This document shows positions 1-44,416 of a DNA stretch of 64,000 nt, one piece after another. The stretch is taken from contig NZ_JAALCR010000019.1 in assembly GCF_011065895.1 (NCBI RefSeq), forward strand, positions 1 to 64,000, in the 5' to 3' direction. Source of the DNA: Paludisphaera rhizosphaerae (GTDB lineage: Bacteria > Planctomycetota > Planctomycetia > Isosphaerales > Isosphaeraceae). Each line of letters opens with the position of its first letter. Within the stretch, counting starts at the first letter, position 1. Below the pieces are notes generated by a model. The model made no database searches and was not told where the DNA came from. It saw only the letters and a program-made list of their open reading frames with translations. A program made the translations under genes and the position numbers.

Positions 1-43
1 CCCCCGCGAGGGGGGAAGGCCGTTGGGGTTCAGATCTCGACAT
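1..43 (-). CDS. Possible start of next operon gene (partial)
   Basis: The CheA stop codon and an ATG overlap as TGATG on the minus strand, so a further gene could begin here and run off the window edge. The readable start is MSRSEPQRPSPLAG, which I do not recognise. Tight overlaps (ATGA) join the neighbouring genes of this operon, which favours a real coupled start. Against it, the same bases contain a GC-rich run of C then G that could instead be a hairpin ending the operon. Confidence 0.25.
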   Translation of the reverse strand, partial: MSRSEPQRPSPLAG

Positions 44-2889
44 CAACCCCGCGCCTCACCGATGAGATCCACGACCGTGGCCAGGAACGTCTGGTCGTGG
101 AAGCTGCTCTTGGTCAGATAAAAATTCGCGCCGGCGTCGAGGCCGCGGATGCGGTCTTCTTCGCGGTCCTTGTAGCTGACGACGACGACGGGGATCGACC
201 GCAGGCGGGGGTCTTTCTTGATGAGGGAGACCAGCTCGATTCCGTCCATGCGGGGCATGTCGATGTCGCTGACGACGAGGTCGTATCGGCCGGAGCGCAC
301 CGCGTTCCAGCCGTCGACGCCGTCGACGGCGACGTCCACCTGATAGCCCTGGTTTTCCAGGAGCTGGCGTTCCAGCTCGCGGACGGTGATCGAGTCGTCC
401 ACCACCAGCACGCGGCGGGCTCGCTTCGATTCGCCGTCAGCGGCCGACGCGGCGGAATCGCCCCCCAGTCGACCCACGCGACGGCCCGTGAGCAGGTTGT
501 CGACCGATCGGATCAGGTCCTCGACGTCGATGATCAGGACCGGCCAGCCGTTCTCCAGGACGGAAGAGCTGTTGAGGTTGGGGACGCGTCCCAGCCGGCC
601 GTCCAGCGGCGCGACGCGGAGGTCGCGCTCGCCCAGGAACTTGTCGACGACCACGCCGAAGCGGTGGCTGCGGTCGCTGGCGATCACCACCGGCAGCCTT
701 CCCGCCGGCCTTGGGGTGGATTCCAACTCCAGGATCCGCGAGGCCTCCACCAGCCCCACCGGCTGGCCGTCGACCTTCATGTGCGGCTTCCCCTCCAGGT
801 CGACCAACTCCTCCGGGGCGACGGTCGCAATCCGGTCGATCCGATTCAGCGGGAACGCGAAGGGCTCGCCGGAGATCTCCACCAGCAGCGCCCGGATGAT
901 CGACATCGTCAACGGGAGCTGGAGCGTGAATTTGGTCCCCTTCCCCAGCCGCGTCGAGACGCGGACCGTCCCACGAACGGCTTGCACCATCGTCTGCACG
1001 ACGTCCAGGCCGACACCCCGGCCTGAGATCTCCGTCACCTTGTCCTTGGTGGAGAAGCCCGGCAGGAAGAGGAAGTCCAGCAGCTCCGCCTCGGTCATCC
1101 GCGCGGCCATCGGCTGCGTGGTGAGCCCCTTCTCCACGACCTTCTCCCGCAGCCGTTCCACGTCGATGCCGCGGCCGTCGTCTTCCAGGACGATCTGGAG
1201 CATGCCGGCCATGTGGCGGGCCTCCAGGCGGATCGAGCCGGTTGGGTCCTTGCCGGCGGCCTGACGCTCGTCGGGGGGCTCGATCCCGTGGTCGAGCGAG
1301 TTGCGGATCAGGTGGTTGAGCGGGGCGTCCAGGCCGTCGAGGATGTCGCGGTCCACGCCCACAGCCTCGCCGACGACCTCGAATTTTGCCTGCTTGCCCA
1401 TCTGGCGGGAGACGTCGCGGACCAGCCGGGGGAATCCGCGGACGCCGTCCGCCAGGGGCCGCATCCGGCTGGCCAGCACCTCGTGATGCAGCCGGCCGGA
1501 GATGTCCTCGCCGTTGCGCGCGAACTCCTCGATCGCCTCCAGCGAGCCCGTCAGCCCCTCCTGGCAACGCATGGCCTCGTCGCGGGCCCGCGAGAGCATG
1601 GCGCGCTCGACGCCCAGATCGCCGTCCGTCCCGGCGTCGGCGGTGAGACGGTTCTCCAGGGCCTGGAGCGTCTCCAGCAGGCCGGCCTGCCGCCGCTTGA
1701 GCGCCAGCAGGTCGTCGAGGAACGGCCGGAACCGCCTCGTCTGCACGAGCGACTCGCCCGCCAGCCCCATCAACCTCGTGAGGCTCTCGGCCGTGACTCG
1801 CACGACCCGATCCGCCCCCTCGGCCGACGCGGGGACTGGTGCGGCCGGCTTCGAAGGTCGCGCGGGCTCGCGCTCGACCGGCTTCGCGGGGGCCTTCGCC
1901 GCCGGCGCGGGGGCGGCCTCGGCGGGAGCCGGTTCCGGAGGCTTCTCGGCCGCCGGCTGTGGTTCGACGACCGGGGTGGCGGCGGGCGTCTTGCCGGCCT
2001 CGATCTCCGCCAGGGCGGCGGTCAGCGCCTCGACCTCGCCGGCCTTCGCCTCCTGCCACGCGGGCAGGTCGGGCTCGCGGACCTGCGAGACTTCGGTGAG
2101 GAAGTCGACCCCGCGCAGGAGGGCGTCGACGGCCCCCGTCGGCAGCGTGATCTTCCCCTTCTGCGCGGCGACGAGGACGTCCTCCATCGCGTGGGCGACC
2201 TTCACCCCGGCGTCCAGGTTGACGACCCGCGCGGCCCCCTTGATGGAGTGCGCGGCGCGCATGAGGGGCTCGATGGCGCTGGGAGAAGAATCCTGCTCCA
2301 GGCCCACCAGGCCCTGCGAGAGCACCGCCAGCCGTTCTTCCGCCTCCATGCGGAAGAGGTCCATCAGCGAGAACCCGCTGAGATCTTCGGGAGGCGGCGC
2401 GGGCTTCGCGGCGGGGGGCGGTGGAGGCGGCGGCGTGGGCTCTGGTTCTGGTTCAGCAGCGGGCGGCGGCGCAACCGCCGGGGCCTTGCCGGCCTCGACG
2501 TCGGCCAGCTCGGCGCACAGGGCGTCGACGTCGCCGGCGCGTTCGGCCTGCCAGGTTTCGAGGTCCGCGTCCTTCACCTTGGAGACGTCGGTGAGGAAGT
2601 CGACCCCGCGCAGGAGGACGTCGACGCCGGCCGACGAGAGCGTGAGCTTCTCCTTCTGGGCGGCGACGAGGACGTCCTCCATCGCGTGCGCGACGCGGAC
2701 GGCGGCGTCCAGGTTGACGACCCGCGCGGCCCCCTTGATGGAGTGCGCGGCGCGCATGAGGGGCTCGATCGCCGTGGGCGAGGCGTCCTGCTCCAGACCC
2801 ACCAGGCCTTGCGAGAGCACCGCCAGCCGTTCCTCCGCCTCCATGCGGAAGAGGTCCATCATCGAGAACCCGCTGAGGTCTTCGCTCAT
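43..2889 (-). CDS. wspE: WspE-like hybrid CheA histidine kinase with receiver and two HPt domains
   Basis: 948 residues. Order of domains: HPt 1 (about 1-110, phospho-acceptor H49 in AAHSIKGAARVV), proline-rich linker, HPt 2 (about 168-275, H214 in the identical motif), Pro/Ala linker (about 290-350), dimerisation region, HATPase (HLIRNSLDHG near 524, then DDGRGID and GRGVGLDVVQ), CheW-like domain (about 665-800) and a C-terminal receiver (acceptor D near 876 in VVSDIDMPRMDG). This is the WspE/hybrid-CheA layout. It would receive signals through two CheW proteins and phosphorylate a CheB and an output regulator. The start chosen (MSEDLSGF) overlaps the upstream cheW stop by 4 bp; the open frame extends further upstream but that part reads as antisense noise. 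The tandem HPt is unusual for WspE. Confidence 0.95.
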   Translation of the reverse strand: MSEDLSGFSMMDLFRMEAEERLAVLSQGLVGLEQDASPTAIEPLMRAAHSIKGAARVVNLDAAVRVAHAMEDVLVAAQKEKLTLSSAGVDVLLRGVDFLTDVSKVKDADLETWQAERAGDVDALCAELADVEAGKAPAVAPPPAAEPEPEPTPPPPPPPAAKPAPPPEDLSGFSLMDLFRMEAEERLAVLSQGLVGLEQDSSPSAIEPLMRAAHSIKGAARVVNLDAGVKVAHAMEDVLVAAQKGKITLPTGAVDALLRGVDFLTEVSQVREPDLPAWQEAKAGEVEALTAALAEIEAGKTPAATPVVEPQPAAEKPPEPAPAEAAPAPAAKAPAKPVEREPARPSKPAAPVPASAEGADRVVRVTAESLTRLMGLAGESLVQTRRFRPFLDDLLALKRRQAGLLETLQALENRLTADAGTDGDLGVERAMLSRARDEAMRCQEGLTGSLEAIEEFARNGEDISGRLHHEVLASRMRPLADGVRGFPRLVRDVSRQMGKQAKFEVVGEAVGVDRDILDGLDAPLNHLIRNSLDHGIEPPDERQAAGKDPTGSIRLEARHMAGMLQIVLEDDGRGIDVERLREKVVEKGLTTQPMAARMTEAELLDFLFLPGFSTKDKVTEISGRGVGLDVVQTMVQAVRGTVRVSTRLGKGTKFTLQLPLTMSIIRALLVEISGEPFAFPLNRIDRIATVAPEELVDLEGKPHMKVDGQPVGLVEASRILELESTPRPAGRLPVVIASDRSHRFGVVVDKFLGERDLRVAPLDGRLGRVPNLNSSSVLENGWPVLIIDVEDLIRSVDNLLTGRRVGRLGGDSAASAADGESKRARRVLVVDDSITVRELERQLLENQGYQVDVAVDGVDGWNAVRSGRYDLVVSDIDMPRMDGIELVSLIKKDPRLRSIPVVVVSYKDREEDRIRGLDAGANFYLTKSSFHDQTFLATVVDLIGEARG

Positions 2890-3635
2890 TGGCCGATACT
2901 CCGGAGCGCGGCGAAGACGCGGGTCTCGTCGAGGAAGCCCACTGTGCGGTCTTCCCAGGGGATGACGGCCTGGCTGAAGCTGACGGTCGGGTTGGCGAGC
3001 GTCGAGGGGACGGCCTGGAGCGAGCCTCGGGCGAAGTGCTCGACCCCAAGGACCTCGTCGGCCCCGAAGGCCCAGACCTCGGCCCGCTCTCGGTCGCGCA
3101 GGACGATCAGCCGCTCGCGCGACGAGGCGCCGTCGCCGCTGGGTTTCGGCTCGGGGAGGCCGAGCAGACCTTGCATGGAGAAGCAGAGCTGGAGCTGTCC
3201 CCGGAGGTTGACCAGTCCGCGGAGCACGGCGTTGGTCCGGTGCGGGACGCGGTGGATGGGCCGGGGGAGTGCGGCCTCGACGACCGTCGAGGTGCGAAAG
3301 GCCAGCCACTCGGAGCCCAGGCGGAAGATGAGGGCGCCCACGTCGTCGCGCCGGCCCTGCTCGTCGCGCGAGGCGGCCAGCTCCTTCTCATCGTTGCACT
3401 CGCTGTCCTCGCTCAGCCAGCGGGTCCACTCGTCGAGGTACCCGGAGGGCGCTGGACGGTCGAAGAAGGCCCGCGCGGCGGAGGCGAAGACGGGGCAGTT
3501 GCGGCAGTGGACGTGGGCCTTCAACTCCGGACAAGTCTGGTCGCCGCCGACGCCGATGGTGTTCCAGCAGTCGTCGAGCCCGGGAGCCCTGAAAATCGGC
3601 AGAGCTTCATCGTCGAGGCCGAGAGTGTGGTTCAT
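2886..3635 (-). CDS. wspD: WspD-like CheW adaptor with N-terminal Cys motif
   Basis: 249 residues. The N-terminal part has a cysteine set C23, C35, C44, C47 (CWNTIG, TCPEL, HCRNCPVF) of the kind found in WspD-type CheW proteins. The C-terminal CheW domain (about 98-249) reads VGALIFRLGSEWLAF, then RGLVNLRGQLQLCF, and ends in a strand-rich part. CheW couples a receptor to CheA. Its ends overlap the cheR stop and the cheA start by 4 bp each, so translation is probably coupled. A metal-binding role for the cysteines is inference. Confidence 0.92.
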   Translation of the reverse strand: MNHTLGLDDEALPIFRAPGLDDCWNTIGVGGDQTCPELKAHVHCRNCPVFASAARAFFDRPAPSGYLDEWTRWLSEDSECNDEKELAASRDEQGRRDDVGALIFRLGSEWLAFRTSTVVEAALPRPIHRVPHRTNAVLRGLVNLRGQLQLCFSMQGLLGLPEPKPSGDGASSRERLIVLRDRERAEVWAFGADEVLGVEHFARGSLQAVPSTLANPTVSFSQAVIPWEDRTVGFLDETRVFAALRSIGQ

Positions 3636-4960
3636 GCGTCGGGCCTCCGGTCGGGATCCGTCTTGTTATCGGCATGCGCGGCCCGGTTCCTCAAGGCTCG
3701 TTCGGCGCGTCGACGGAAACCGGCCGCGGCGGCGGAGTCTCCCCGACGCTCGGCCAGCAGGGCCAGCGCCAGCAGCGCCTCGTCGTGGTTGGGGTCCAGG
3801 TAGATCGCCTTGCCGAAGCACGTCTCGGCCTCCGACCGTCTCCCCGCCGCCTGATGAATCCCCCCCATCAAGGCGAAGACGACGGCCGACGGCCCCGCCC
3901 GCCGAAGTTCGCGCTCGCAACAGGCCAGGGCCTGGCCGTGCCGGCCTGCGTTGGCGTGCTCGATCGCCTGCTCCGTCAGCGGCCGCGCGTCCTCGGCCGG
4001 CGGACAAGGAGCGGGAGGCGGCGGGGGCTTCGGCGCGATTGGGATGGAGGGCTTCGGCCTCGGGGGCGGACTCAGCGACAGCGGCGGAGGTTTCGGCGGC
4101 GCGGGGAGGGCCAGCTCGATCGGGGCGTCGAACGACCGAGCGAGCGCCTCGCCGGGTCGACGACGGCGGTAGGCGAACGCGCCCCGCCCGGCGGCGGCGA
4201 CGAGGCTCCGGGCCTCGGCCGAGGCCCCCAGCGAATCGGCGTGGCCGACGATCAGGACGCCGTCGGGCGCCAGCATCCGCAGCAGGTTCAGCTCGGCCCG
4301 GGCGCGGGCCTCGCGGTCCAGGTAGATCAGCAGGTTGCGACAGAAGACGACGTCATACGGAGACCCCTCGTTCGCGATCGCCGGGTCCAGGACGTTCCCC
4401 AGGCGGAAGTGGACGCTCGGGCGAAGTCCCGGGACGATCTCGAAGGCCTCGCCGATGCAGCGGAACCAGCGGGCGACTCGTTCCGGCGACACGCCCCGCA
4501 CGGCGTTCCTCGAATAAATTCCGCGACGCGCGAACTCCAATCGCGCCGCGCTGACGTCGACGGCGTCGATATGCTTTCGCGACGCCGGCAGCCCCGCCTC
4601 GTCGAGCGTCGCGGCGATCGAGTACGGTTCCTCGCCCCCCGCGCAGGGGAGGCTCAAGACTCGCATCGGCTCGCGCGAGGGCCGGGACGTCCAGCCGGCG
4701 CGCGCCAGGTCGCGGAGGAAATCGAACGGGGCTCCGTCGCGGAAGAACCAGCTTTCCGGGACGACCACCTCGTCGATCAGGGCCTGCAACTCGGCCTCCG
4801 ACGAGGCGGCCAGCCGTGCGTACTCGTCGACGTTATGCACTCCCGTCGCCTTCATCCGCGTATTCGTCGCGCGCGGCACCACCCCCGAGCCGATCGAGGC
4901 TCGGTCCAGCCCCAGCCGCTCGTGCAGGATGGCGTCGAGGACGTGGTGGGGGGAGGACAT
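3632..4960 (-). CDS. wspC: WspC-like CheR methyltransferase with TPR tail
   Basis: 442 residues. Residues about 1-270 are a CheR methyltransferase, with SAM-site signatures LSLPCAGGEEPYSIA and VVFCRNLLIYLDREA and the N-terminal arginine-rich helix typical of the family. A long proline-rich linker (about 285-345) follows, then tetratricopeptide-like helices (about 350-425: GRHGQALACCERELRRAG, GRRSEAETCFGKAIYLDPN). CheR plus C-terminal TPRs is the WspC architecture. It methylates glutamates of the receptor for adaptation. It overlaps the next gene by 4 bp. The ATG lies about 90 bp beyond the preceding 110-residue gene. Confidence 0.93.
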   Translation of the reverse strand: MSSPHHVLDAILHERLGLDRASIGSGVVPRATNTRMKATGVHNVDEYARLAASSEAELQALIDEVVVPESWFFRDGAPFDFLRDLARAGWTSRPSREPMRVLSLPCAGGEEPYSIAATLDEAGLPASRKHIDAVDVSAARLEFARRGIYSRNAVRGVSPERVARWFRCIGEAFEIVPGLRPSVHFRLGNVLDPAIANEGSPYDVVFCRNLLIYLDREARARAELNLLRMLAPDGVLIVGHADSLGASAEARSLVAAAGRGAFAYRRRRPGEALARSFDAPIELALPAPPKPPPLSLSPPPRPKPSIPIAPKPPPPPAPCPPAEDARPLTEQAIEHANAGRHGQALACCERELRRAGPSAVVFALMGGIHQAAGRRSEAETCFGKAIYLDPNHDEALLALALLAERRGDSAAAAGFRRRAERALRNRAAHADNKTDPDRRPDA

Positions 4961-5427: not shown

Positions 5428-5883
5428 TCATTGTACCTCGCGGCGGTCGGAAGTCGTCGGGGCGTCGAGGACCTTGTCGACCAAGAGCAACTGGATCATC
5501 CCCGAGTTGGTTTCGGCGATGCCCCCCAGGTAGGGGGCGTTGGGGATCGTCGTGGGGATGGGGGCGAGGGCGGCGGGGTCGACGGGGGTCAGGTCGTCGA
5601 CGTGCTCGGCGACCAGGCCGAGAAGTTCGCGGCGATCGGGGGCTGCGCCGCCGCGGTCGATCAGGATGATCCGCGTGCTGAGGCGGTCGGGGGCGGCCGT
5701 GGAGCCGAGCAGCATCCCCAGATCGACGACGGTGACGACCTCGCCGCGGTACTCGAACACCCCCGTCAGATGCGCCGGGGCGTGCGGCAAGGGGCGGGCC
5801 CGAACCCGGGGGACGACTTCCACCACCCTCTTTGCGTCGACCGCATAGCGCTGGCCGGCGGCCTGGAACGTCAGGAGCAGCAC
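5428..5883 (-). CDS. wspB: WspB-like CheW coupling protein
   Basis: 151 residues, a single CheW domain of normal length: LLTFQAAGQRYAVDAKRVVEV at the N-terminus, the conserved GVFEYRGEVVTVVDLG core, and a C-terminal strand region. It would link the adjacent receptor to the CheA. Translation starts at GTG preceded by GGAGG six bases upstream. It lies 28 bp after the receptor gene, so the two are surely co-transcribed. Confidence 0.92.
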   Translation of the reverse strand: MLLLTFQAAGQRYAVDAKRVVEVVPRVRARPLPHAPAHLTGVFEYRGEVVTVVDLGMLLGSTAAPDRLSTRIILIDRGGAAPDRRELLGLVAEHVDDLTPVDPAALAPIPTTIPNAPYLGGIAETNSGMIQLLLVDKVLDAPTTSDRREVQ

Positions 5884-5911: not shown

Positions 5912-7963
5912 TCAGGCGCCGGTCGTGTGAGCGGGCGGTTCCAGAGCGCCGACGGAGAACCGCGAGACCTCCTCCTTCAGGCCGCCGACGGCCTCGCGGA
6001 GATGCGCGGTGGCGCTGTTGAACTCGCGGATCGAGCTGCTCGTCTGGCCGGCGACCTCGCTCAGCCGATGCATGGCCTCGCGGATCTGGTCGGCCCCCTG
6101 AGACTGCACCCGCATCCCCTCGGTCACCTGTTCGAACCGTTCGTCGAGGCCCTGGACGCCGGCGATGACCTCGCCGAGCCGGCCGCCGATCTGCTGGACC
6201 TCGGTCACCACGGCGCGGACGTGCTCGCTGAATTTGTCCATCTCCATCACGCCGGCCGAGACGCTGTACTGCATCTCCTTGACCATCCGCTCGATGTCGA
6301 GCGTGGCCACGGCCGTCTGGTCGGCCAGGCGGCGGATCTCACGGGCGACGACCAGGAAGCCCAGGCCGTACTCGCCGGCCTTCTCGGCCTCGATCGCCGC
6401 GTTGATCGACAGCAGGTTCGTCTGGTCGGCGACCTTCGTGATGGTGGTGACCACCATGTTGATGTTGGCGGCGCGCTCGCTGATGACCGACAGCTTGGAG
6501 CTGATCGACCCGGTGCTCTCCGCGAGCTGCCGCATGGTGCCGTCCATGCCGGCCAGGCCGTCGCGACTCCCCGCCGCCTGCTGGGCCGTCTGGCGGGCGA
6601 CCGAGTTGACCTCGGTCATCGTCTTGAGCAGTTCCTGGCTCGTGGCCGAGATCTCGTTGACCGCCGCGGCGGCCTCATTGGTGCTGGCCCCGTACTCGTA
6701 GACGGACTGCTCCTGCTGCTTGGAAGTCGCCGCGATCTCCGTGGCCGTCGACAGCAGCGCGATGCTCGATTTCTGGATCTTGCCGATCAGCGATCGCAGG
6801 TCGCCGTTCATCTTGCGGATGGCCGTCAGCAGCAGGCCGACCTCGCCGGCGGCTTGCTCCTGGCAAGAGGCCGTCAGGTCGCCGGCCGCGACCCGCTCGG
6901 CCAGCGCGGCGGCCCCCCGGATCGGCCGGGTGATCGACCGGGCCATCCGCCAGGCGGCCAGGACGACCAGGGCCGTCGTCGCGGCCATCAGCGCGCCCAC
7001 CGCCCAGCGCTGGCGGTGAATCATGGCGAAGGCCTCGCCGTGGTCCTGTTTGACGATGAGCCCCCATCGGAAGGCTGGGATGTACGACCAGGAGGCGACG
7101 ACCGGCTGGTCGCGGTAGTCCATCACCTCGCCGTAGCCGTGGACCCCCCGAACGGCGTACTGGAGCGCCGTGCCGGCCATTCCTCCCATCGGCAGCCGAT
7201 GACGGAAGGCGGCGTCGGGCATGTGCCGCAGGGGTGAGACGTAGATGATCTCGTTCCCCTTGCGCATGCCGACGATCGCCTCGCCGGTTTCGCCGAGGCC
7301 GCTGTAGTCCAGGAAGCCGCGATACATCTCGCGGTTGCCGATGCGGAGGGCGACCATCCCCACCAGCAGACCGTCCTTGAGGACCGGCTGAGCCAGGAAC
7401 AGCGCGGGGTCGGCCAACCCGGGATAGGCCTGGAAGTCGGCCGTCTCACCTTGCAGGAGCGTCCGCGAGCGGCGGAAGACCTCGGCCAGCTCGGAGTCCC
7501 GCAGCGGGCCGGTCAGGAGGTTCTCGCCGAAGTCGAGGTCCTTCTTCCACTCCAGGAGCGGCCGGCCGGCGACGTCGAACAGGTAGAGGTTCTCATATCC
7601 GTAGGTGTCGCAGAAGAGCCGCATCGAGGGCTCGGACCGCCGCCGGACTGCCTCGGCCGCGGCCTCGTCGTTCGCCGCGAGCGCCTTCGACATGTCCTGC
7701 GCGGCCGTCTGGGTGGCGACGAGTTGGCCCAGGACTGTCAGGTTCCCCTGCCGCTCGCGGATGAAATTGTTCAGGTCCTGGGCCCGCGACGCGGCCACCG
7801 TCTGGAGCTGGTTCCGCAGGCCCTTCTCCAGCGATTCGGTCGCCAGCCCGTTGGCGATGTACGTCAGCAGGGCGCAGGGGATCAGCGAGATCGTCAGAAA
7901 GCCCAGCATCAGCCGGGGGCCGATCCCCATCCGCGAGAGCTTCGATCGGAGCGAGGTCGTCAT
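5912..7963 (-). CDS. wspA: WspA-like methyl-accepting chemotaxis protein
   Basis: 683 residues. A membrane segment near 17-38 ([20 protein letters not shown]), a large extracytoplasmic sensor of dCache type (about 40-308), a second membrane segment (about 309-330), HAMP (about 331-385) and a long signalling coiled coil (about 400-665). The hairpin tip reads [17 protein letters not shown] and [18 protein letters not shown], and then [12 protein letters not shown], which closely resembles WspA of Pseudomonas as I remember it. No CheR-docking pentapeptide is seen at the C-terminus. It follows the binding-protein gene by 69 bp. Confidence 0.94.
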
Positions 7964-8032: not shown

Positions 8033-9397
8033 CTAACGCGGCGTCTCACGCGGGCCCGCCGCCGCCCTCACGGTCCCTCGAGGACCCCACACAACTGGAG
8101 GCGGCGGGGGAGCGGCGGCCTTCGCCGACGGCGAAGGCGCTGTGGTCGATGATTCAGGGAGGCCCGACTTGCCGTCGACCCGCCAGCGACGGAGGGCCGC
8201 CTCCCAGATCGACCGGGTGCGGAAGACCGGGAACGGCGTCGGCCGGATCGGCTGCTCCATCGCCCAGACCTGTTCGATCCGGCCGGCCAGGGTGATCTTG
8301 CCGACCCGGATCGGCCGCCAGACGTGGATCATGTCGATGTCCATTGCCACCACCCCCGCCCCGGTCTCCAAACTCTGCCGCGAGAGGTGGTCGCGAACCT
8401 CGGTCGACTCGATCGACTCCCCCTCGGCCACGGCCTGCGCCCACATTTTCACCGCGAAGTACATCGAGACAGACGGATCGCTGGTCGTCCGATCGCTTCC
8501 GAAACGGGCCTTGAACTTGTCGACGAGGCGCCGGGAGGCCTCGTCGCCGGCCGAATGGAAATAAGACCAGACCGCGTACCGACCCGCGGTCTGGTCGTGG
8601 GGGAGCCGTTGTAGATCGTCCTCGGAGACGCGGAGGCAGACCATCGGCAGCTTCTCGGCCGTCAGGCCGGCGGCCGTCGCCTGCTGAAAGAGGGCGCGGT
8701 TGGCGTCGCCCACGATTGAGCTGACCACTACGTCCGCGCCGGCGCTCTTCATCGCCGCGACCAGCTCCGTTACGCCCTTACCGTCGACCTTCACGAATTC
8801 CTCGCCGACCACCGAGCCCCCCAGCGCCTTGAGCTGGTCGCGGACGACGGCGTGGATTGCGTACGAGGAGACGTCCTCGATCCCGGCCAGGAAGAACTTC
8901 CGAGCCTTCAGCGAGTCCATGCACCACGAGACGGCCGGGACCGCCTGGTTGTTCGGCAGCGGGCCGAATCCGACCATGTCGCGGGCGTACTCGCAGCCCT
9001 CGTACTGGCCGGCGTTGAAGACCAGGATCTCCCTTGACTTCGCGGCGTCTTCCATCTCGCGGCGGCAGGCCGAGGTCAGGCCGCCGAAGAGGGCGCAGAC
9101 CTTGTCGGCGTCGACCAGCCGGCGAGCCTCGCTGCGGAACGTCTGGGGGTCGGATCGGCCGTCGCCGATCACCCACTTCACCTGCCGGCCGAGCAGCCCG
9201 CCCTGGGCGTTGATCTCCTCAAGGGCGAGCACCGCGGCGTCGAGCATCGGCTCCTCGACGACCGCCAGCGGTCCGGACTGCGAATGCAACAGCCCGACCA
9301 CGATCGGCGCTTCGGCCCGACGGAGCCACTGGGAACCCCCGTGCAGGGCCGCCGCCAGCAAGGCCGCCGCCAGCGCCCCGAGTACCCAACGCAGCAT
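8033..9397 (-). CDS. Periplasmic substrate-binding protein, urea/amide or branched-chain amino acid type
   Basis: 454 residues. An N-terminal membrane/signal segment (LGALAAALLAAALHGG) is followed by a type I periplasmic binding fold: IVVGLLHSQSGPLAVVEE, DAAVLALEEINAQGGLLGR and the downstream ALFGGLTSACRREMED stretch resemble the UrtA/FmdD/Leu-Ile-Val receptors. The last 50 residues are a proline/alanine-rich tail. No ABC permease or ATPase lies nearby; the gene leads the chemosensory operon. I infer that it acts as an anchored sensor that presents ligand to the WspA-like receptor rather than as a transporter part. Confidence 0.85.
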   Translation of the reverse strand: MLRWVLGALAAALLAAALHGGSQWLRRAEAPIVVGLLHSQSGPLAVVEEPMLDAAVLALEEINAQGGLLGRQVKWVIGDGRSDPQTFRSEARRLVDADKVCALFGGLTSACRREMEDAAKSREILVFNAGQYEGCEYARDMVGFGPLPNNQAVPAVSWCMDSLKARKFFLAGIEDVSSYAIHAVVRDQLKALGGSVVGEEFVKVDGKGVTELVAAMKSAGADVVVSSIVGDANRALFQQATAAGLTAEKLPMVCLRVSEDDLQRLPHDQTAGRYAVWSYFHSAGDEASRRLVDKFKARFGSDRTTSDPSVSMYFAVKMWAQAVAEGESIESTEVRDHLSRQSLETGAGVVAMDIDMIHVWRPIRVGKITLAGRIEQVWAMEQPIRPTPFPVFRTRSIWEAALRRWRVDGKSGLPESSTTAPSPSAKAAAPPPPPVVWGPRGTVRAAAGPRETPR

Positions 9398-25296: not shown

Positions 25297-27144
25297 ATGC
25301 CGGACAAACAACCTGGGCGAGTCCTCAAGGACATCGAATCGCTGTTCGGCGGGGGGATCGTCGCGGGGAAGGACGACGATCAGCTCCTGGAGCGGTTCGC
25401 GTCGCGACGCGACGAGGCGGCTTTCGACGCCATCGTGGCGGCGCACGGCCCGATGGTCCTGGCCGTCTGCCGACGCGTCCTGGCCAACCCCAGCGACGTC
25501 GAGGACGCCTTCCAGGCGACGTTCCTGGTCCTGGCCCGCAAGGCTCGCTCGATCCGCGCGGGGACGAGCCTGGGCGGATGGCTTCGCCGGGTGGCGCACC
25601 GGGTCGCGGTCGAGGTGAACCGAGACGCGATCCGGCGTCGGGTCCGCGAGGCGACGGCCGCGGCCTTGTCGTCCGCCGATCGCCACGGCCACGTCCCGGA
25701 CGACTTCCGGCCGGCCCTCCACGAGGAGATCGGCCGCCTCCCTGAGAGGCTCCGCCGGCCCGTCGTCCTCTGCTATCTGGAGGGGATGACGCAGGAGGAC
25801 GCCGCCGCCGAACTCCGTTGGAGCGGCGCGACGCTGCGACGGCGGCTGGCCGCGGCCCGGGAGCGGCTTCGCTCGCGGCTGGAACGCCGGGGGCTCTCGC
25901 CGTCGTCGTCGCCCCTCGCAGCGCCGCTCGCCGACCACGTCACGACGGTCGTACCGCAGGCCTTGGCGAGGGCCACCACCAGGGCCGCTTCCGCTCTCAT
26001 CCTGGGAAGAACCGCCACCGCCCCCGTCGCGCTGATGCTCAGCCGGCGCGTGCTGAGGATCCTGCTCATGACGCAGCTCAAGGCCATCGCCAAGATCGTC
26101 CCGACGAGCGTCGCCGCCGCCTGCTTCGCCACGGGGCTCGTCGCGGCCCTGCACGGCGGGGCCGACGCCCCGGGGATCAAGCGGGCGCAAGCCGCCGCCC
26201 GAAACCTCACGGTCGCCGAGGTCCGGTCGAAGGCCGTCACACTCACCCAGTCTTTCGCCTGCCAGATTCATGCCAATCGGCACATCGGTTTCCGCTCCCT
26301 GGAGGATGGAGACCTCCGCGAGATTCGGGTCAAGGAGGGACAGAAGGTGAAGCAGGGCGAGCTGATGTTCAAGCTCGACCCGGCCCCCTTCCAGGCTCGC
26401 TTGGACACGGCGTCGGCCGACGTCAAGCTGGCGCAGGCGGAGTTGGACAAGGTCAAAAAGCTGTTCGAGAACAAGGCGGCCGCCGAGGCCGAGGTTCGGA
26501 CTTCCGAGACGAAGCTGGCCGAGGCCGAAGCCAGGGAGAAGTCGGCGAAGGCCGACCTGGAATACACCGATTTGAAGGCGCCGTTCGAGGGCGTCATCGG
26601 GCGACTCGATCGCGAGAAGTTAGGCCCCGTTCGTGAGGGCGAGCCCCTCACAACCCTGACCGACAACACCGTGATGTGGGTCTATTTCAATCTGCCTGAA
26701 GAACTCTATCGCCAATACATGGCCGACCGGGATCGGAATCGACTGAAACCTTCCTTCGAGCTGATGCCGGCTGGCGAGAAGAAGTTTCCCCAGGCCGGCA
26801 AGCTCGGCGCGATCGAGCCCGAGGCCGCCAAGAAGACCGGGCCCATCGCGTTCCGCGTCGATTTCCCGAACCCGGACGGCACCCTGCATCACGGCCAGAC
26901 CGGCACGATCCTTTACAGCCGGGTGGAGGACGACGCGATCGTCGTGCCCCGGCGAGCGACCCTCGAAGTCTCGGGCAAGCGGTATGTCTACGTCGTGGCC
27001 AAGGACGGCGTCGCGCATCGCCGCGAGATCACCGTCCGGGCCGAGGTGGACGACCTGTTCGTCATCAAGGATGGAGTCGCCGTGGGCGAAAGCATCGTCG
27101 TGGACGGGGTCAAACAGGTCCATGATGGAGAGAAGGTGAAGTGA
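25297..27144 (+). CDS. ECF sigma factor fused to RND-type periplasmic adaptor
   Basis: 615 residues, one intact frame. Residues about 25-205 are an ECF sigma factor (QLLERFASRRDEAAF, DVEDAFQATFLVLARKARS in region 2; LPERLRRPVVLCYLEGMTQE and LRWSGATLRRRLAAARERL in region 4). A hydrophobic segment near 265-285 (VPTSVAAACFATGLVAALHG) would span the membrane. Residues about 315-615 are a membrane-fusion (HlyD/AcrA) domain: DLREIRVKEGQKVKQGELMF and FKLDPAPFQARLDTA (lipoyl), a coiled-coil hairpin, then YTDLKAPFEGVIGRL and a beta-barrel end. So a transcription factor is tethered to an envelope-spanning adaptor. No RND pump or anti-sigma gene lies next to it. Confidence 0.9.
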   Translation: MPDKQPGRVLKDIESLFGGGIVAGKDDDQLLERFASRRDEAAFDAIVAAHGPMVLAVCRRVLANPSDVEDAFQATFLVLARKARSIRAGTSLGGWLRRVAHRVAVEVNRDAIRRRVREATAAALSSADRHGHVPDDFRPALHEEIGRLPERLRRPVVLCYLEGMTQEDAAAELRWSGATLRRRLAAARERLRSRLERRGLSPSSSPLAAPLADHVTTVVPQALARATTRAASALILGRTATAPVALMLSRRVLRILLMTQLKAIAKIVPTSVAAACFATGLVAALHGGADAPGIKRAQAAARNLTVAEVRSKAVTLTQSFACQIHANRHIGFRSLEDGDLREIRVKEGQKVKQGELMFKLDPAPFQARLDTASADVKLAQAELDKVKKLFENKAAAEAEVRTSETKLAEAEAREKSAKADLEYTDLKAPFEGVIGRLDREKLGPVREGEPLTTLTDNTVMWVYFNLPEELYRQYMADRDRNRLKPSFELMPAGEKKFPQAGKLGAIEPEAAKKTGPIAFRVDFPNPDGTLHHGQTGTILYSRVEDDAIVVPRRATLEVSGKRYVYVVAKDGVAHRREITVRAEVDDLFVIKDGVAVGESIVVDGVKQVHDGEKVK

Positions 27145-35234: not shown

Positions 35235-36278
35235 ATGCGGATAGGGATCGTCAACGATTCGGTGATGGCGCGCGAGGCGCTTCGACGCGTCGTGACGTCG
35301 GCCGAGGGGCTGCAGGTGGCCTGGACGGCCCGCGACGGCGCTGAGGGGGTGGACATGGTTCGGGCCGACATGCCCGACCTCGTCCTGATGGACCTCTTCA
35401 TGCCCAAGATGGACGGCGTCGACTCCACCCGGCGGATCATGAAGGAGACCCCCTGTCCCATCCTGGTGGTCACCGCCACGGTCAGTGGGCAGATCGACAA
35501 GGTCTATCAGGCCATGGGCTTCGGCGCGCTCGACGCCGTCGACACGCCCGTCCTGGGCGCCTGTGGCAACTGCTCGGGCGGGGCCGACCTTCTCAAGAAG
35601 ATCCACACGATCGGCAAGCTGGTCGGCAAGTATCAGCCGAAGTGCCCGGCCTGGACGCCCCCGCTCGCACCGCCGCCGGGACAGGGGCTTGAGCCGCTCG
35701 TCGTGATTGGGGCCTCGACCGGGGGCCCGTTCGCGGTGGCGGAGGTCCTCAAGGGGCTCCCCCGCGACTGGTCGGTCGCCACGGTGATCGTCCAGCACGT
35801 CGACGCCTTCTTCGTCGCCGGCCTGGCGGACTGGCTTCGCGACCACTCCGGGCGCCGCGTTCAGCTCGTCGCCGACGGCCACAGGCCGGCCCCGGGCGAC
35901 TTCCTGCTGGCCGCCACGGGGGACCACCTCGTGATGGACCCGGACGGTCGGCTTCGCTACTCGGCGGAGCCGAAGTCCGCCTGTTATCGGCCCTCGGTCG
36001 ACGTCTTCTTCCAGAGCGTCGCCCGGAACCGCCCCGGCCCCGGCGCAGCGGCCCTGTTGACCGGGATGGGTCGCGACGGCGCCGAGGGGCTGCTCGCCCT
36101 GAAGCGTCGGGGGTGGCGGACCGTCGCCCAGGACGAGGCCTCGTCGGTCGTCTGGGGGATGCCCCGCGCGGCCTTTGAGATCGGCGCCGCTGAGATCGTC
36201 GCCCCGCTCGACGAGGTGGCGGACGCTCTCGTTCAGGGGCTCGCCGCCGCTCGCGCGGGGGTCTCCGTCGCCAAGTGA
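35235..36278 (+). CDS. wspF: WspF-like CheB methylesterase
   Basis: 347 residues. Receiver (1-120) with acceptor D53 in LMDLFMPKMDGV, then a linker and a CheB esterase domain (about 155-347) with the catalytic start GASTGGPFA, IVQHVDAFF, and LLTGMGRDGAEGL. The receiver contains RIMKETPCPILVV and MGFGALDAVDTP, which resemble WspF rather than chemotaxis CheB. It would remove methyl groups from the WspA-like receptor and compete for phosphate from WspE. It lies 32 kb from the rest of the cluster, transcribed the other way. Confidence 0.9.
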   Translation: MRIGIVNDSVMAREALRRVVTSAEGLQVAWTARDGAEGVDMVRADMPDLVLMDLFMPKMDGVDSTRRIMKETPCPILVVTATVSGQIDKVYQAMGFGALDAVDTPVLGACGNCSGGADLLKKIHTIGKLVGKYQPKCPAWTPPLAPPPGQGLEPLVVIGASTGGPFAVAEVLKGLPRDWSVATVIVQHVDAFFVAGLADWLRDHSGRRVQLVADGHRPAPGDFLLAATGDHLVMDPDGRLRYSAEPKSACYRPSVDVFFQSVARNRPGPGAAALLTGMGRDGAEGLLALKRRGWRTVAQDEASSVVWGMPRAAFEIGAAEIVAPLDEVADALVQGLAAARAGVSVAK

Positions 36279-36373: not shown

Positions 36374-37036
36374 TCAGCGGACTCGGCGGCGGAGGCGACG
36401 GCCGGCCGCCAGGCCGACCACGCCCAGTCCCAGCATGGCGATCGAGGCCGGCTCGGGGACCGCGTTGTAGGAGCCGACCAGGCCGTCGACGATCAGGCCG
36501 GTGGAGGTGTAGTTGAAGTTGCTCGTCTCAAAGGTCAGCGTGTTGGCGCCGAGCTGGAAGTACGCCGAACTCGTGATCGCAAACGATGCGAACGTGCCGA
36601 ACTGCAGCAGGCCCGTGCTCAGACCCAGGGAATGACCGTTCAAAAGGACGTCCGTGATCCGATCGTCCGACGCATACTTGCCGGAGATCGAGACCGTGGA
36701 GAGGTCCGCGTTCGCCCCAATCGTGAAGGTCGTCGTGTAGTCGTAGGACGACGCGCTGCCGATCGTGGAGTACGCCGGGGAGATCCACTGGGCGGTCGAC
36801 GTGTTGGGCACCCACGCCGGCGACCAGCTCGGCACGTAGATCGTGTACGGTCCGCCTCCCGCCGAGACCGTGTAATGGGGGTCGTCCGCAAAGGTCGGCA
36901 GCAGGTTGTGGGAGGCGTTCACGCCCGTGTTGAACAGGTCGGCGATCGCGATGCTCCCCGCCGCGAGGGATTCCGAGGGGGCCGTCGCCAGAGCGAGGCC
37001 GAGGGCCAGGGTCGGGATGGTCTTGGACAGCTTCAT
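36374..37036 (-). CDS. PEP-CTERM anchored exported protein
   Basis: 220 residues. N-terminal signal peptide (TIPTLALGLALATAPSESLAA), a beta-rich body, and the C-terminal sorting signal VPEPASIAMLGLGVVGLAAG followed by RRLRRRVR. PEP-CTERM proteins are processed by exosortase and usually belong to surface polysaccharide/matrix functions. No exosortase gene is in the window. It sits convergent with wspF. Confidence 0.93.
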   Translation of the reverse strand: MKLSKTIPTLALGLALATAPSESLAAGSIAIADLFNTGVNASHNLLPTFADDPHYTVSAGGGPYTIYVPSWSPAWVPNTSTAQWISPAYSTIGSASSYDYTTTFTIGANADLSTVSISGKYASDDRITDVLLNGHSLGLSTGLLQFGTFASFAITSSAYFQLGANTLTFETSNFNYTSTGLIVDGLVGSYNAVPEPASIAMLGLGVVGLAAGRRLRRRVR

Positions 37037-37627: not shown

Positions 37628-38830
37628 ATGAGCACCGACGCCCATTTCACCGAGCACAAGATCACCGTCCTCCTGATCGACGATCAGGCGATGATCGGCG
37701 AGGCCGTGCGGCGGATGCTCGCCGGCGAGTCCGACATCGAGTTCCACGCCTGCCGAGACGCCACCATCGCGCTCGACGAGGCGCTCCGGATCAAGCCCAC
37801 GGTCATCCTTCAGGACCTGGTCATGCCCGACGTCGACGGCCTGACCCTGGTCAAGAACTTCCGCGCCCGGGAAGAGACCCACGACGTGCCGATGATCGTG
37901 CTCTCCACCAAGGAGGAGCCGGCCGTCAAGGCGGAGGCCTTCGCCCTGGGCGCCAACGACTACGTCGTCAAGCTCCCCGACCGCCTGGAGCTGATCGCCC
38001 GGATCCGCTACCACTCGCGGGGGTACATCGCCCTTCTTCAGAGGAACGAAGCTTACAAGGCCCTGGAAGAGAGCCAGAAGCGGCTCGCCGCCGAGGTCCG
38101 CCAGGCCGAGCGCTACGTCTACTCGCTCTTGCCCGACAAGCTGAAGAAGGGGGAGATCCTGACCGACTGGCGGTTCGTCCCCTCGGCCGAGTTGGGGGGG
38201 GACTCGTTCGGCTATCACTGGCTGGACGACGACCACTTCGCCTTCTACCTGCTGGACGTCAGCGGCCACGGCGTCGGCGCGGCGTTGCTCTCGGTCTCGG
38301 CGATGAACGCGCTGCGGTCGCAGGCCCTGCCGAACGCCGACTTCCGCAACCCCAGCCAGGTCCTCTTCGCGCTCAACAACGCCTTCCAGATGGACCAGCA
38401 GAACGGGCTCTACTTCACGATCTGGTACGGCGTCTTCCACAAGCCGACGCGGACCGTCCACTACGCGGGGGGCGGCCACCCGCCGGCCATCCTCATCGAC
38501 GGCCCCTCGCGCGACGACGTCAAGCTGACGATGCTGGAGTCGAGCGGCCCGATGATCGGCGCGATGACCGACATGGAGTACGCCTCGGCCGAGGCGACCC
38601 TGGGCGCCTTCGCCAAGATCTACCTCTTCAGCGACGGCGCCTACGAGATCGAGAAGGCCGACGGCGTCCTCTGGCCCTTCTCCGAGTTCATCGCCTTCAT
38701 GGGCAAAGGCCCCTTCGACGACCCGGCCGCCCCCAAGATGGACGCCCTCGTCGCCCACGACCGCGACCTCATGGGCCAGGACGACTTCGCCGACGACCTG
38801 TCGATGGTCGAGCTGACGTTTCTACCGTGA
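37628..38830 (+). CDS. WspR-type receiver fused to SpoIIE/PP2C phosphatase
   Basis: 400 residues; GGAAGGG precedes the ATG. Residues about 10-135 are a receiver (acceptor D63) whose text DDQAMIGEAVRRMLA, PTVILQDLVMPDVDGLTL, IVLSTKEEPAVK and GANDYVVKLPDRLELIARIR is strikingly close to WspR. After a coiled-coil linker (about 145-170), residues about 185-400 are a SpoIIE/RsbU PP2C phosphatase: ELGGDSFGYHWLDDDH, YLLDVSGHGVGAALLS, YAGGGHPPAIL and LFSDGAYEI carry the metal-binding acidic residues. Phosphorylation would probably switch on dephosphorylation of an anti-anti-sigma protein. WspR normally has GGDEF here. Confidence 0.92.
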   Translation: MSTDAHFTEHKITVLLIDDQAMIGEAVRRMLAGESDIEFHACRDATIALDEALRIKPTVILQDLVMPDVDGLTLVKNFRAREETHDVPMIVLSTKEEPAVKAEAFALGANDYVVKLPDRLELIARIRYHSRGYIALLQRNEAYKALEESQKRLAAEVRQAERYVYSLLPDKLKKGEILTDWRFVPSAELGGDSFGYHWLDDDHFAFYLLDVSGHGVGAALLSVSAMNALRSQALPNADFRNPSQVLFALNNAFQMDQQNGLYFTIWYGVFHKPTRTVHYAGGGHPPAILIDGPSRDDVKLTMLESSGPMIGAMTDMEYASAEATLGAFAKIYLFSDGAYEIEKADGVLWPFSEFIAFMGKGPFDDPAAPKMDALVAHDRDLMGQDDFADDLSMVELTFLP

Positions 38831-38867: not shown

Positions 38868-39575
38868 ATGACGTATGATCCGGCCAGGCATCACCGACGG
38901 TCGATCCGCCTGAAGGAGGCCGACTACGCGGCGAGCGGTTCGTACTTCGTAACGATCTGCGTCCAGGATCAGGTGGACCTGTTCGGCGAGGTGGTCGACG
39001 GAGAAATGCGGCTCAACGCCGCAGGGGCCATGGTTGCGGAAACGTGGCGGGCGCTAGCCCAGAGGTTCCCGCGGGTGGCGCCCGATACATTCATCGTGAT
39101 GCCGAACCATTTCCACGGGATCTTGTTCCTGGGCGGCGGCGATCCGGATTCCGACGGCGATTCGGCATCGGTAGGGGCACCCCTTGTGGGTGCCCGAATT
39201 CCGGATGCGCCAACCACGCCGGGATCGAAATCCGACGCCGATCGGGCGCCCACAAGGGGCGCCCCTACAGCCGCCCGAATTCCGGACGTCCCAACGTCGA
39301 AAAGAATCGCGGTGGGGGACGTGGTGGGGGCTTTCAAATCCTTGACGACGCTCGAATACACGCGCGGCGTCAAGGCTTTGGGCTGGGCTCGTTTCCGCGG
39401 CTCGCTTTGGCAACGGAACTATTTCGAGCACATCATCCGTGACGAGGAACCCCTGGCGGCGATTCGCGGCTACATCCTCGACAATCCGCGCCGCTGGACC
39501 TCCGACCGGGAAAACCACGACACATCGCGGGAGGAACCGAAGGCCCCGGCGTGGGTCGCCGGGGTCTCGGGCTGA
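38868..39575 (+). CDS. REP-associated tyrosine transposase (RAYT)
   Basis: 235 residues, TnpA_REP/Y1 family: HHRRSIRLKEADYAASGSY and FVTICVQ at the start, the metal-binding motif MPNHFHGIL (near 80), and the catalytic region AFKSLTTLEYTRGV followed by LWQRNYFEHIIRDE. Members nick and move REP palindromes. A 50-residue insertion (about 100-150) encoded by two inverted palindromes separates the halves; the reading frame is kept. A hairpin (39544-39564) overlaps its last codons. Confidence 0.9.
   Translation: MTYDPARHHRRSIRLKEADYAASGSYFVTICVQDQVDLFGEVVDGEMRLNAAGAMVAETWRALAQRFPRVAPDTFIVMPNHFHGILFLGGGDPDSDGDSASVGAPLVGARIPDAPTTPGSKSDADRAPTRGAPTAARIPDVPTSKRIAVGDVVGAFKSLTTLEYTRGVKALGWARFRGSLWQRNYFEHIIRDEEPLAAIRGYILDNPRRWTSDRENHDTSREEPKAPAWVAGVSG
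39171..39268. repeat. Inverted REP-like palindromes inside the RAYT gene
   Basis: GTAGGGGCACCCCTTGTGGG (39171-39190, continuing TGCCC) recurs inverted at 39244-39268 with two changes. Each carries an internal palindrome around TTGTGGG. The words CGAATTCCGGA and CCAAC recur after both, so the encoded peptide ARIPDAPT repeats as ARIPDVPT 27 residues later. Pattern of a BIME-like pair. Confidence 0.8.
39544..39564. terminator. Hairpin at the end of the RAYT gene
   Basis: CCCCGGCG and CGCCGGGG pair around five bases. It lies just before the stop and 26 bp from the convergent gene end; it could serve both directions. Confidence 0.4.
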
Positions 39576-43441: not shown

Positions 43442-44416
43442 ATGCTGACCGTAAAGGGTCGGCCGGTATCCATGGATCAGGATGCGAAGTTGCCCCGACT
43501 CCTGATCGTTGACGATTCTGATTTCGAACGCGGTTTCATCGCCCGCTTGCTCGCCGGATTCGAGGGCCTGACCGTTGAATTCGCCTCCAGCGGCGCCGAA
43601 GCGCTGGAGGTCGTTCAAGCCGACGCCCCGGATCTGATTTTGACCGATCTGGTTATGCCCGGGGTCGATGGTCTGGAGTTGGTCCGTCGGATTCGAGGGC
43701 CCCATCCCGGTCTGCCCATCATTCTGATGACCGCTTTTGGGGGCGAGGACGAAGCCGTTGCCGCTCTTCGCGCCGGAGCCGCGGACTATCTGACCAAGTC
43801 CCGTCTGGAGAAAGACCTCGTGCCCACGTTGCGTCGCGCCCTGGACGCATTCCGCGTCGATCGCCGTCGCCAGGGCTTGAACCGTCGCCTTCGGTCGCGA
43901 ACGTCCGAGTACGAGCTGGGCTGCGAACCCGACCTCGTCTGGACCCTCGGCCACGTCCTGGTCGAGGAGGTCGCCGCCCTCGGCTTGCTCGAACATCCCG
44001 AGCGCATTCGGCTGCACGTCGCCTTGCAAGAAGCTCTGGCCAACGCGCTCTACCACGGCAACCTGGAGTTGGACTCCGAACTCCGGCAGGAGGACGAGAC
44101 CGTCTTTTACCTGCTGGGAGAGACCCGGCGGGTGCAGGAGCCCTATCGATCGCGCCGGCTTCGCGTAAAGGCGGCGCTCGACCATCATTCCGCCGTCTTC
44201 GTCATCGCCGACGACGGGCCCGGCTTCGACCACGGCCGCCTGACTCGCCCCGTCGCGGACGAGGACCTCGCCCGCATCGGCGGCCGGGGTCTGCTGCTGA
44301 TGCGGACGTTCATGGACGAGGTGAAATACAACGCCCGGGGGAACGTCGTCACCCTGGTCAAACGGCTGGGGCCTCGGCCGGCGCATGACGAGGCGAGCCG
44401 TACCGGCGGATCCTAG
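43442..44416 (+). CDS. Receiver fused to RsbW-like anti-sigma HATPase
   Basis: 324 residues; AAGGAGG lies ten bases before the ATG. Receiver (about 15-140) with D69 in LILTDLVMPGVDG; then an HATPase_c_2 domain (about 165-310) with N-box LQEALANALYHGNLE, DDGPGFDHGRL and GRGLLLMRTFMDEV. This is the RsbW/SpoIIAB class, kinases that sequester sigma factors or phosphorylate anti-anti-sigma proteins. Phosphorylation at the receiver would control it. The stop TAG lies inside the CTAG end of a miniature element, so the C-terminus may be altered. Confidence 0.9.
   Translation: MLTVKGRPVSMDQDAKLPRLLIVDDSDFERGFIARLLAGFEGLTVEFASSGAEALEVVQADAPDLILTDLVMPGVDGLELVRRIRGPHPGLPIILMTAFGGEDEAVAALRAGAADYLTKSRLEKDLVPTLRRALDAFRVDRRRQGLNRRLRSRTSEYELGCEPDLVWTLGHVLVEEVAALGLLEHPERIRLHVALQEALANALYHGNLELDSELRQEDETVFYLLGETRRVQEPYRSRRLRVKAALDHHSAVFVIADDGPGFDHGRLTRPVADEDLARIGGRGLLLMRTFMDEVKYNARGNVVTLVKRLGPRPAHDEASRTGGS

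Follow-up and report, generated by a model that had tools for sequence, protein, structure and literature searches.

A WspR-type receiver and stalk joined to a PP2C phosphatase beside a Wsp-type gene set of Paludisphaera rhizosphaerae

In the window (the whole 64,000-nucleotide stretch of Paludisphaera rhizosphaerae DNA analysed here) a Wsp-type chemosensory gene set is accompanied by a response regulator in which a receiver and helical stalk closely akin to those of Pseudomonas WspR carry a PP2C phosphatase of the SpoIIE/RsbU type. The whole is a variant of the Wsp pathway, and its regulator protein is not a WspR. In the reading that we favour, and consider likely, the regulator is a PP2C Ser/Thr phosphatase that serves a Wsp-type pathway and acts on a STAS-domain partner; the signal probably exits by partner-protein switching and not by c-di-GMP synthesis, in P. 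rhizosphaerae and across several further phyla alike. Domain content, the kinship of receiver and stalk with WspR, the catalytic residues, the gene set, its synteny and the stalk length were all computed.

The phosphatase protein

The phosphatase gene (Table 1) opens with ATG and encodes 400 amino acids. Among PDB sequences its best match is P. aeruginosa WspR (3bre; E 6e-57, aa 11-156), nearly equalled by P. syringae WspR (3i5a; E 7.6e-57, aa 9-154), and both matches span the receiver and the stalk; the depositors' names for these entries say only that they are response regulators, and the Foldseek titles give PA3702 and full-length WspR. Third comes P. aeruginosa RssB (3eq2; E 1.2e-24), which spans both domains, and the remaining PDB receivers follow at E 5.7e-13 and weaker. 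Receiver and stalk are 68.3% identical over 142 aa to WspR of P. aeruginosa PA7 (L092), thus bearing out the closeness to Pseudomonas WspR that a preliminary description of this DNA had claimed. That description's assignment of the output domain to the SpoIIE/RsbU phosphatases likewise holds by the Pfam match.

A conserved GGD motif (aa 190-192) lies immediately N-terminal to the Pfam SpoIIE span. In an alignment of 48 of the 59 full-length candidates (the 11 omitted are mostly near-copies), receiver residues D18, D19, D63 and K115 and phosphatase residues G191, D192, D210, D336, D389 and D390 are invariant in all 48 proteins; we take D192, D210, D336, D389 and D390 to be the metal-binding aspartates of PP2C. 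By its domain match and conserved aspartates the protein is thus a PP2C of the SpoIIE (RsbU) type. Pfam finds no GGDEF output domain in it, the SpoIIE/PP2C domain standing in that place, and it is for lack of GGDEF that the protein is not called a WspR. No second WspR-type receiver was found in the P. rhizosphaerae genome (8.0 Mb, 110 contigs, 99.99% complete), and since the runner-up is only 35% identical (E 5.1e-12), no GGDEF-bearing WspR was found there either.

The AlphaFold2 monomer model of the protein has a mean pLDDT of 93.0 and a pTM of 0.70. When it was searched with Foldseek, four P. aeruginosa RssB chains came out on top (best E 1.2e-26), WspR appeared from rank 6, and the PP2C domain of SiaA (6k4e) was also among the top matches.

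Table 1. Features of the window discussed in the text (PA7, P. aeruginosa PA7).
Feature	Position	Strand	Basis or remark
WspE-like hybrid CheA (Hpt, HATPase, CheW, receiver)	43..2889	-	Pfam; PA7 WspE E 1e-213, 47.2% over 803 aa
WspD-like CheW	2886..3635	-	Pfam; 31.1% over 244 aa to PA7 WspD
WspC-like CheR with C-terminal TPR-like repeats	3632..4960	-	37.6% over 442 aa to PA7 WspC
WspB-like CheW	5428..5883	-	Pfam; 37.0% over 138 aa to PA7 WspB
WspA-like chemoreceptor	5912..7963	-	PA7 WspA similarity in signalling half only (aa 335-671)
UrtA-like solute-binding protein	8033..9397	-	directly upstream of wspA
WspF-like CheB methylesterase with receiver	35235..36278	+	Pfam; 48.7% over 337 aa to PA7 WspF
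Receiver, stalk and PP2C (SpoIIE/RsbU-type) phosphatase	37628..38830	+	Pfam, PDB matches, trees, model
Receiver domain, aa 14-127	37667..38008	+	Pfam Response_reg, E 3.6e-19
Continuous helix, aa 119-167 (last receiver helix and stalk into phosphatase)	37982..38128	+	AlphaFold2 model
PP2C/SpoIIE domain, aa 200-397	38225..38818	+	Pfam SpoIIE, E 1.2e-35
Receiver and HATPase_c_2 (RsbW-like kinase)	43442..44416	+	Pfam; 4.6 kb downstream of phosphatase gene

The Wsp genes of the window

The presence of a full WspA-E set and a WspF-like CheB in the window, as had been described, is confirmed: genes on the minus strand between 43 and 7963, together with the plus-strand CheB gene, match wspA to wspF of PA7 one to one with their order kept. 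With a receptor, two CheW proteins, a CheR with TPR, a hybrid CheA and a CheB, all similar to WspA-F, the set is a Wsp-type system. Its wspE gene runs up to the contig edge. The sensor of the window WspA is dCache-like, by a match that falls short of the Pfam cut-off; in PA7 WspA its place is taken by 4HB_MCP_1. Immediately upstream of wspA, 12 of the 13 wspA-bearing stretches from the order have an UrtA-like gene (L197 is the one without), and with such a gene beside wspA the pathway here may respond to a small ligand instead of to contact.

The contiguous ABCDEF-R order is present in relatives and absent from the window, where A-E (minus strand) lie ~27 kb from F and R (plus strand); this split on opposite strands was counted against the favoured explanation, as it bears on co-regulation. 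The gap between wspF and the phosphatase gene is 1353 bp in the window, and 30-221 bp in the 25 further genomes of this order where the two are linked. A PEP-CTERM reading frame (36374-37036, minus strand) lies within the window's gap, and the reading frame just 3' of the phosphatase gene (38868-39575) has no Pfam match and presumably resembles a REP-associated transposase.

The stalk

The modelled helix that leaves the receiver is matched by a conserved spacing. From the receiver lysine to the first output motif, 52 residues are counted in 56 of 61 PP2C proteins and in all 45 GGDEF proteins; the other five PP2C proteins have 45, exactly seven fewer. The motif used first left four of the 61 PP2C rows unplaced and put one at 60; with a wider motif, sought over a shorter segment, every one of the 61 was placed. 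On a tree from which the stalk had been excluded, the 45-residue state needs four changes, at least three of them forced by the starred branches, and one of its five bearers (L207) is a long branch. That the shorter phosphatases have lost exactly seven residues agrees with a stalk that forms a coiled coil and would relay the signal by phase.

Spacing in the cyclase forms is 49, 49, 49, 42, 42 and 52, and in the three of seven histidine-kinase forms that were measured it is 59, 60 and 67; because of these last counts heptad steps are not valid for every output. Four control REC-PP2C proteins have 55, 45, 48 and 60, one thus sharing the value of 45.

Proposed mechanism and partner genes

In the proposed pathway a cue would be sensed by the solute-binding protein together with the membrane receptor WspA, and the WspE kinase, anchored in the array by WspB and WspD, would phosphorylate Asp63 of the receiver, while WspC and WspF would adapt the receptor via methylation and demethylation. 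Phosphorylation would alter the receiver dimer, the helical stalk of fixed length would relay the change so as to turn the phosphatase on, and the phosphatase would remove phosphate from a STAS-domain partner, whose binding would change in consequence (partner switching). We infer three of these steps, namely phosphotransfer from WspE, activation through the stalk and the STAS protein as substrate.

The last of them draws on two distant loci. In L058 (labelled Candidatus Anammoxibacter) genes for a STAS and then a HATPase_c_2 protein come after wspF and the receiver-PP2C gene; in L100 wspB-F and the receiver-PP2C gene are followed by genes for a HATPase_c_2 protein, a GPP34-domain protein and a STAS protein. 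These are the two loci, among those read, in which a STAS and HATPase_c_2 pair adjoins the phosphatase gene. RsbV is the classic member of the STAS family, and RsbW that of the HATPase_c_2 family. Since the neighbours in L058 and L100 belong to these families, partner switching is the best reading of the downstream genes. A STAS gene alone lies 1.2 kb downstream in L069, beside a different chemosensory cluster. As a separate observation, L100 also encodes a STAS domain fused to an APH-family phosphotransferase (2459-3658), directly upstream of wspB.

No STAS gene was found in the window, and no STAS and HATPase_c_2 pair in it or in the other Isosphaeraceae stretches read. The P. rhizosphaerae genome as a whole has 13 STAS matches, 11 of which lie in frames no longer than 165 aa, and eight HATPase_c_2 matches over the cut-off, of which three are strong, all in frames with a receiver. 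The receiver-HATPase_c_2 protein encoded downstream of the phosphatase gene (Table 1) is a possible, weakly indicated candidate for the opposing kinase. Its gene is near the phosphatase gene in three of six genomes of the genus (that of the window, G032 and G029); the ~17 kb downstream lack it in G028, G030 and G031, as well as in G001 and G002 of another genus, and the idea of a conserved kinase neighbour was dropped on this count.

What the switch would govern is a further matter. The preliminary description had envisaged partner switching on a sigma factor; the switching agrees with L058 and L100, and nothing shows the sigma end point. When reading frames beside the STAS and HATPase_c_2 genes were read by eye (L058, 1500-7000; L100, 11100-16500), no sigma factor was recognised. 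The window itself encodes a 615-aa protein in which ECF-type sigma regions are fused to a HlyD-like membrane-fusion domain (25297-27144); it was considered as a target and dropped, as nothing links it to the phosphatase.

A different end point must therefore be weighed, in which the same phosphatase acts on a STAS partner whose target is not a sigma factor but an enzyme of c-di-GMP metabolism or some other effector, along the lines proposed for SiaA-SiaB-SiaC and SiaD of P. aeruginosa; c-di-GMP would then remain part of the pathway's output. We regard this as an appreciable possibility that falls clearly short of even. It gains from the place of SiaA among the best fold matches, from the sigma factor that was not recognised in L058 and L100, and from the accessible text of PMC7647112, according to which SiaA dephosphorylates SiaC and the state of SiaC is speculated to set the activity of SiaD, but the kinase genes downstream in both loci are of the HATPase_c_2 family, which argues against it.

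Conservation and synteny in the order

The WspR-type receiver is present (E <= 1e-20) in 35 of the 45 genomes of the order, and all 32 of these receiver proteins that were read (35 less G035, G036 and G042) carry PP2C. WspF is found in 30 of the 45 genomes (E <= 1e-90) and WspA in 28 (E <= 1e-150), in every case together with the receiver; the hypergeometric p for WspA and receiver is 6e-6 over the 45 genomes, uncorrected for shared ancestry. The co-occurrence in related genomes on which the preliminary description had staked its case thus stands, for WspA and WspF over the order and for WspA-F in the gene runs of relatives. Conservation in 35 of 45 genomes speaks against chance and, together with the gene runs in relatives and elsewhere, rules out a one-off fusion or an assembly artefact.

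Linkage is close in most of these genomes. The gap between wspF and the phosphatase gene is under 200 bp in 24 of the 45 (24 of the 30 with WspF) and 221 bp in G018; in 10 genomes WspA lies within 15 kb of the receiver gene and shares its strand, and complete runs of the solute-binding protein gene followed by A-B-C-D-E-F-R occur in Isosphaeraceae stretches. In all four genomes of genus g20 the phosphatase gene stands apart from wspA-F. Of the 35 receiver-bearing genomes, five are without a WspF at E <= 1e-90 and seven without a WspA at E <= 1e-150 (G017 has a piece of WspA at a contig end); the assemblies of some of these are incomplete. A second WspA-like receptor gene was seen directly 3' of the phosphatase gene in L202 (5378-7045, identical to L041 11408-13075) and in L051 (11659-13458).

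Distribution beyond the order

In the wider phylum, with up to 15 candidates scored per genome, the receiver (E <= 1e-30) is present in 14 of 244 sampled genomes, two of them of the family of P. rhizosphaerae. The 12 from other families answer the question of which architectures share this receiver in Planctomycetota: 11 have PP2C and one (L215) a histidine kinase. At 10 of the 11 PP2C loci wspE and wspF lie directly upstream, the flank of L214 being the one where they do not.

Across phyla the loci are the best 80 of 564 matches, a sample that for this reason favours relatives of the query, and organism names are those of the record titles. Within it, 13 of 23 PP2C loci have Wsp-type genes in the fetched flanks. 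Complete A-F-R runs occur in records labelled Isosphaeraceae (L041), Verrucomicrobia (L043), uncultured bacterium (L049), Desulfovibrio (L051) and Lentisphaerae (L060, L062); L100 (an uncultured proteobacterium) has a B-F-R run in which WspA was not detected, and the rest of the 13 have partial sets or a different order. At the other 10 no Wsp-type gene was found in the flanks. Two of these, L048 and L052, are on contigs of ~3 kb; for the other eight WspF was sought genome-wide, and it was found elsewhere in the genome at E < 1e-90 for L044, L045, L053, L054, L057 and L073, as a partial match (1.8e-58) for L056, and at no better than E 9.5e-37 for L069.

These loci bear on a further explanation, that other kinases are the main drivers of the phosphatase, which would share no more than its genome with Wsp, the kinship of its receiver being a leftover. 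Such a state of affairs is suggested by the 10 unflanked loci (two of them on the short contigs), by the poor WspF match in the genome of L069, and by G005, G008, G033, G035 and G036, which are without strong WspA and WspF. We nevertheless hold it to be unlikely, as six of the unlinked loci have a strong WspF elsewhere in the genome and the phosphatase gene stands beside wspF in 24 of the 45 genomes of the order and at 10 of 11 loci of other families.

Wsp-type receivers carry several outputs. In 122 rows (171 minus copies, the counts not being natural frequencies) PP2C is found 61 times, GGDEF 45, histidine kinase seven, adenylate/guanylate-type cyclase six, and three rows are unclassified. 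Among the matches listed, the PP2C form occurs in more phyla than the GGDEF form, which is seen there in Pseudomonas and a few other Pseudomonadota only. In L047 (7567-11191) and L055 (9959-12800) a wspABCDEF run is followed by adenylate/guanylate cyclase and PP2C regulators in tandem, the cyclase domain of L047 being backed by Pfam. WspR-like receivers on GAF and HD domains (assigned by Pfam in L222 and L224, by eye in L223) were seen in planctomycete genomes that also bear the Wsp-PP2C protein, and histidine kinase modules on WspR-type receivers in L064, L066, L072, L116 and L215, from records labelled cyanobacteria, Verrucomicrobia and Dichelobacter and from one planctomycete genome.

Trees and the origin of the outputs

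In the careful receiver tree (42 rows, GGDEF thinned to four, bootstrap short of settling at 0.970) the 33 Wsp-type receivers form one clade with support 100/98, and nine others fall outside it, including four REC-PP2C proteins, namely RssB and three planctomycete ones; the mutual order of the outside rows is unsure because of long branches. The receiver therefore groups with WspR and not with general REC-PP2C proteins, the point on which a tree had been proposed as a check, and together with the PDB E-values this rules out chance similarity or a general RsbU receiver. In a larger quick tree, with GGDEF rows thinned to 14, the 91 Wsp-type rows come together at 93, or at 98 without L223, and in a quick tree of the PP2C domain 24 Wsp-type rows form one clade (99) against 37 others.

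RssB thus lies outside the Wsp-type clade in the receiver and PP2C trees alike. That the protein works as an RssB-like adaptor, whose PP2C fold binds a client (e.g. a sigma factor) with phosphorylation shifting the binding and catalysis secondary, is very improbable: RssB chains are its nearest folds, but their placement outside both clades and the invariance of the catalytic positions in 48 of 48 aligned rows go against it.

An AU test rejects a single clade of all PP2C-bearing receivers (p 0.0014) and does not reject a single clade of the Wsp-PP2C receivers (p 0.384). The simplest reading of the trees would be a single fusion, inherited or transferred as a unit. The pathway had been described as rewired, with a phosphatase instead of GGDEF. 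The PP2C output stands, but the implied direction does not: the trees show none and PP2C is the form found in more phyla. A wording such as "rewired from GGDEF" was rejected as too strong, since the receiver tree does not fix its inner branching order and a clade made up of the Wsp-PP2C receivers alone stands unrejected (p 0.384).

Relation to known systems

The pathway shares with Pseudomonas Wsp (WspABCDEF-WspR) the gene set and, in relatives, the gene order, the receiver and the length of the stalk; it differs in having PP2C where Pseudomonas has GGDEF, in its dCache-like WspA sensor and in the solute-binding protein gene that precedes wspA in most Isosphaeraceae stretches. With RssB/RsbU-type regulators it has in common the REC-helix-PP2C layout and the fold, but both the receiver and the PP2C domain belong to other clades.

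SiaA is not known to serve a chemosensory array as its response regulator. In SiaA-SiaB-SiaC, as here, a PP2C is paired with a STAS-like partner on which it acts and with an opposing kinase (accessible text of PMC7647112); the substrate of SiaA has been shown experimentally, whereas the STAS substrate here is put forward as the probable one.

That REC-PP2C regulators belong to chemosensory clusters is already known: a 2012 census counted Ser/Thr phosphatase 2C and mononucleotidyl cyclases among the outputs of clusters with CheR-TPR (Munoz-Martinez et al. 2012; accessible text of PMC3447774), so that REC-phosphatase 2C and REC-cyclase regulators of alternative-cellular-function (ACF) clusters were on record. 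Unlike the present work, that text does not treat the identity of the WspR receiver or the length of the stalk, and the string "planctomyc" is absent from its main text. A model of RsbU published in eLife in 2025 places receivers among the N-terminal domains that can be exchanged between PPM phosphatases, GGDEF proteins and kinases, the exchange running through dimeric helical linkers (accessible text of PMC12143880, in the main text of which "WspR" does not occur); the present family differs in being a natural case, with one receiver and an equal stalk on a phosphatase and a cyclase.

No publication describing a wsp operon whose WspR carries PP2C was found among the titles and abstracts searched, a coverage outside which lie preprints, most subscription journals and supplements. 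As far as the literature found goes, the WspR receiver on PP2C in complete wsp runs across phyla is new, and so, within the same bounds, are the equality of stalk length, the pairing of outputs and the adjoining STAS and kinase genes.

Implications

A broader view may be taken, for which we would claim somewhat less than an even chance: that Wsp is an old front end for surface or ligand sensing, not essentially tied to c-di-GMP, whose one receiver-stalk carries various enzymes. Under it the mounts would be PP2C, GGDEF (in Pseudomonadota), adenylate/guanylate-type cyclase, histidine kinase and GAF-HD, with PP2C as the mount in most phyla of the sample (among the matches listed), and PP2C and GGDEF would sit at equal stalk length and in equal helical phase. 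A cyclase and a PP2C behind one array may fire in parallel, the phosphatase output may predate the GGDEF one, and the array of planctomycetes and allied bacteria would govern gene expression or development by partner switching.

The equal stalk of PP2C and GGDEF proteins, together with the seven-residue deletions, provides a natural test of how one receiver-stalk drives unlike enzymes. For planctomycetes the matter is also practical, as their Wsp genes, "WspR" included, have been interpreted on the Pseudomonas model as surface or biofilm genes (accessible text of PMC6461901 and PMC9119077); if the planctomycete "WspR" is a phosphatase, the c-di-GMP control inferred from such annotations may be wrong.
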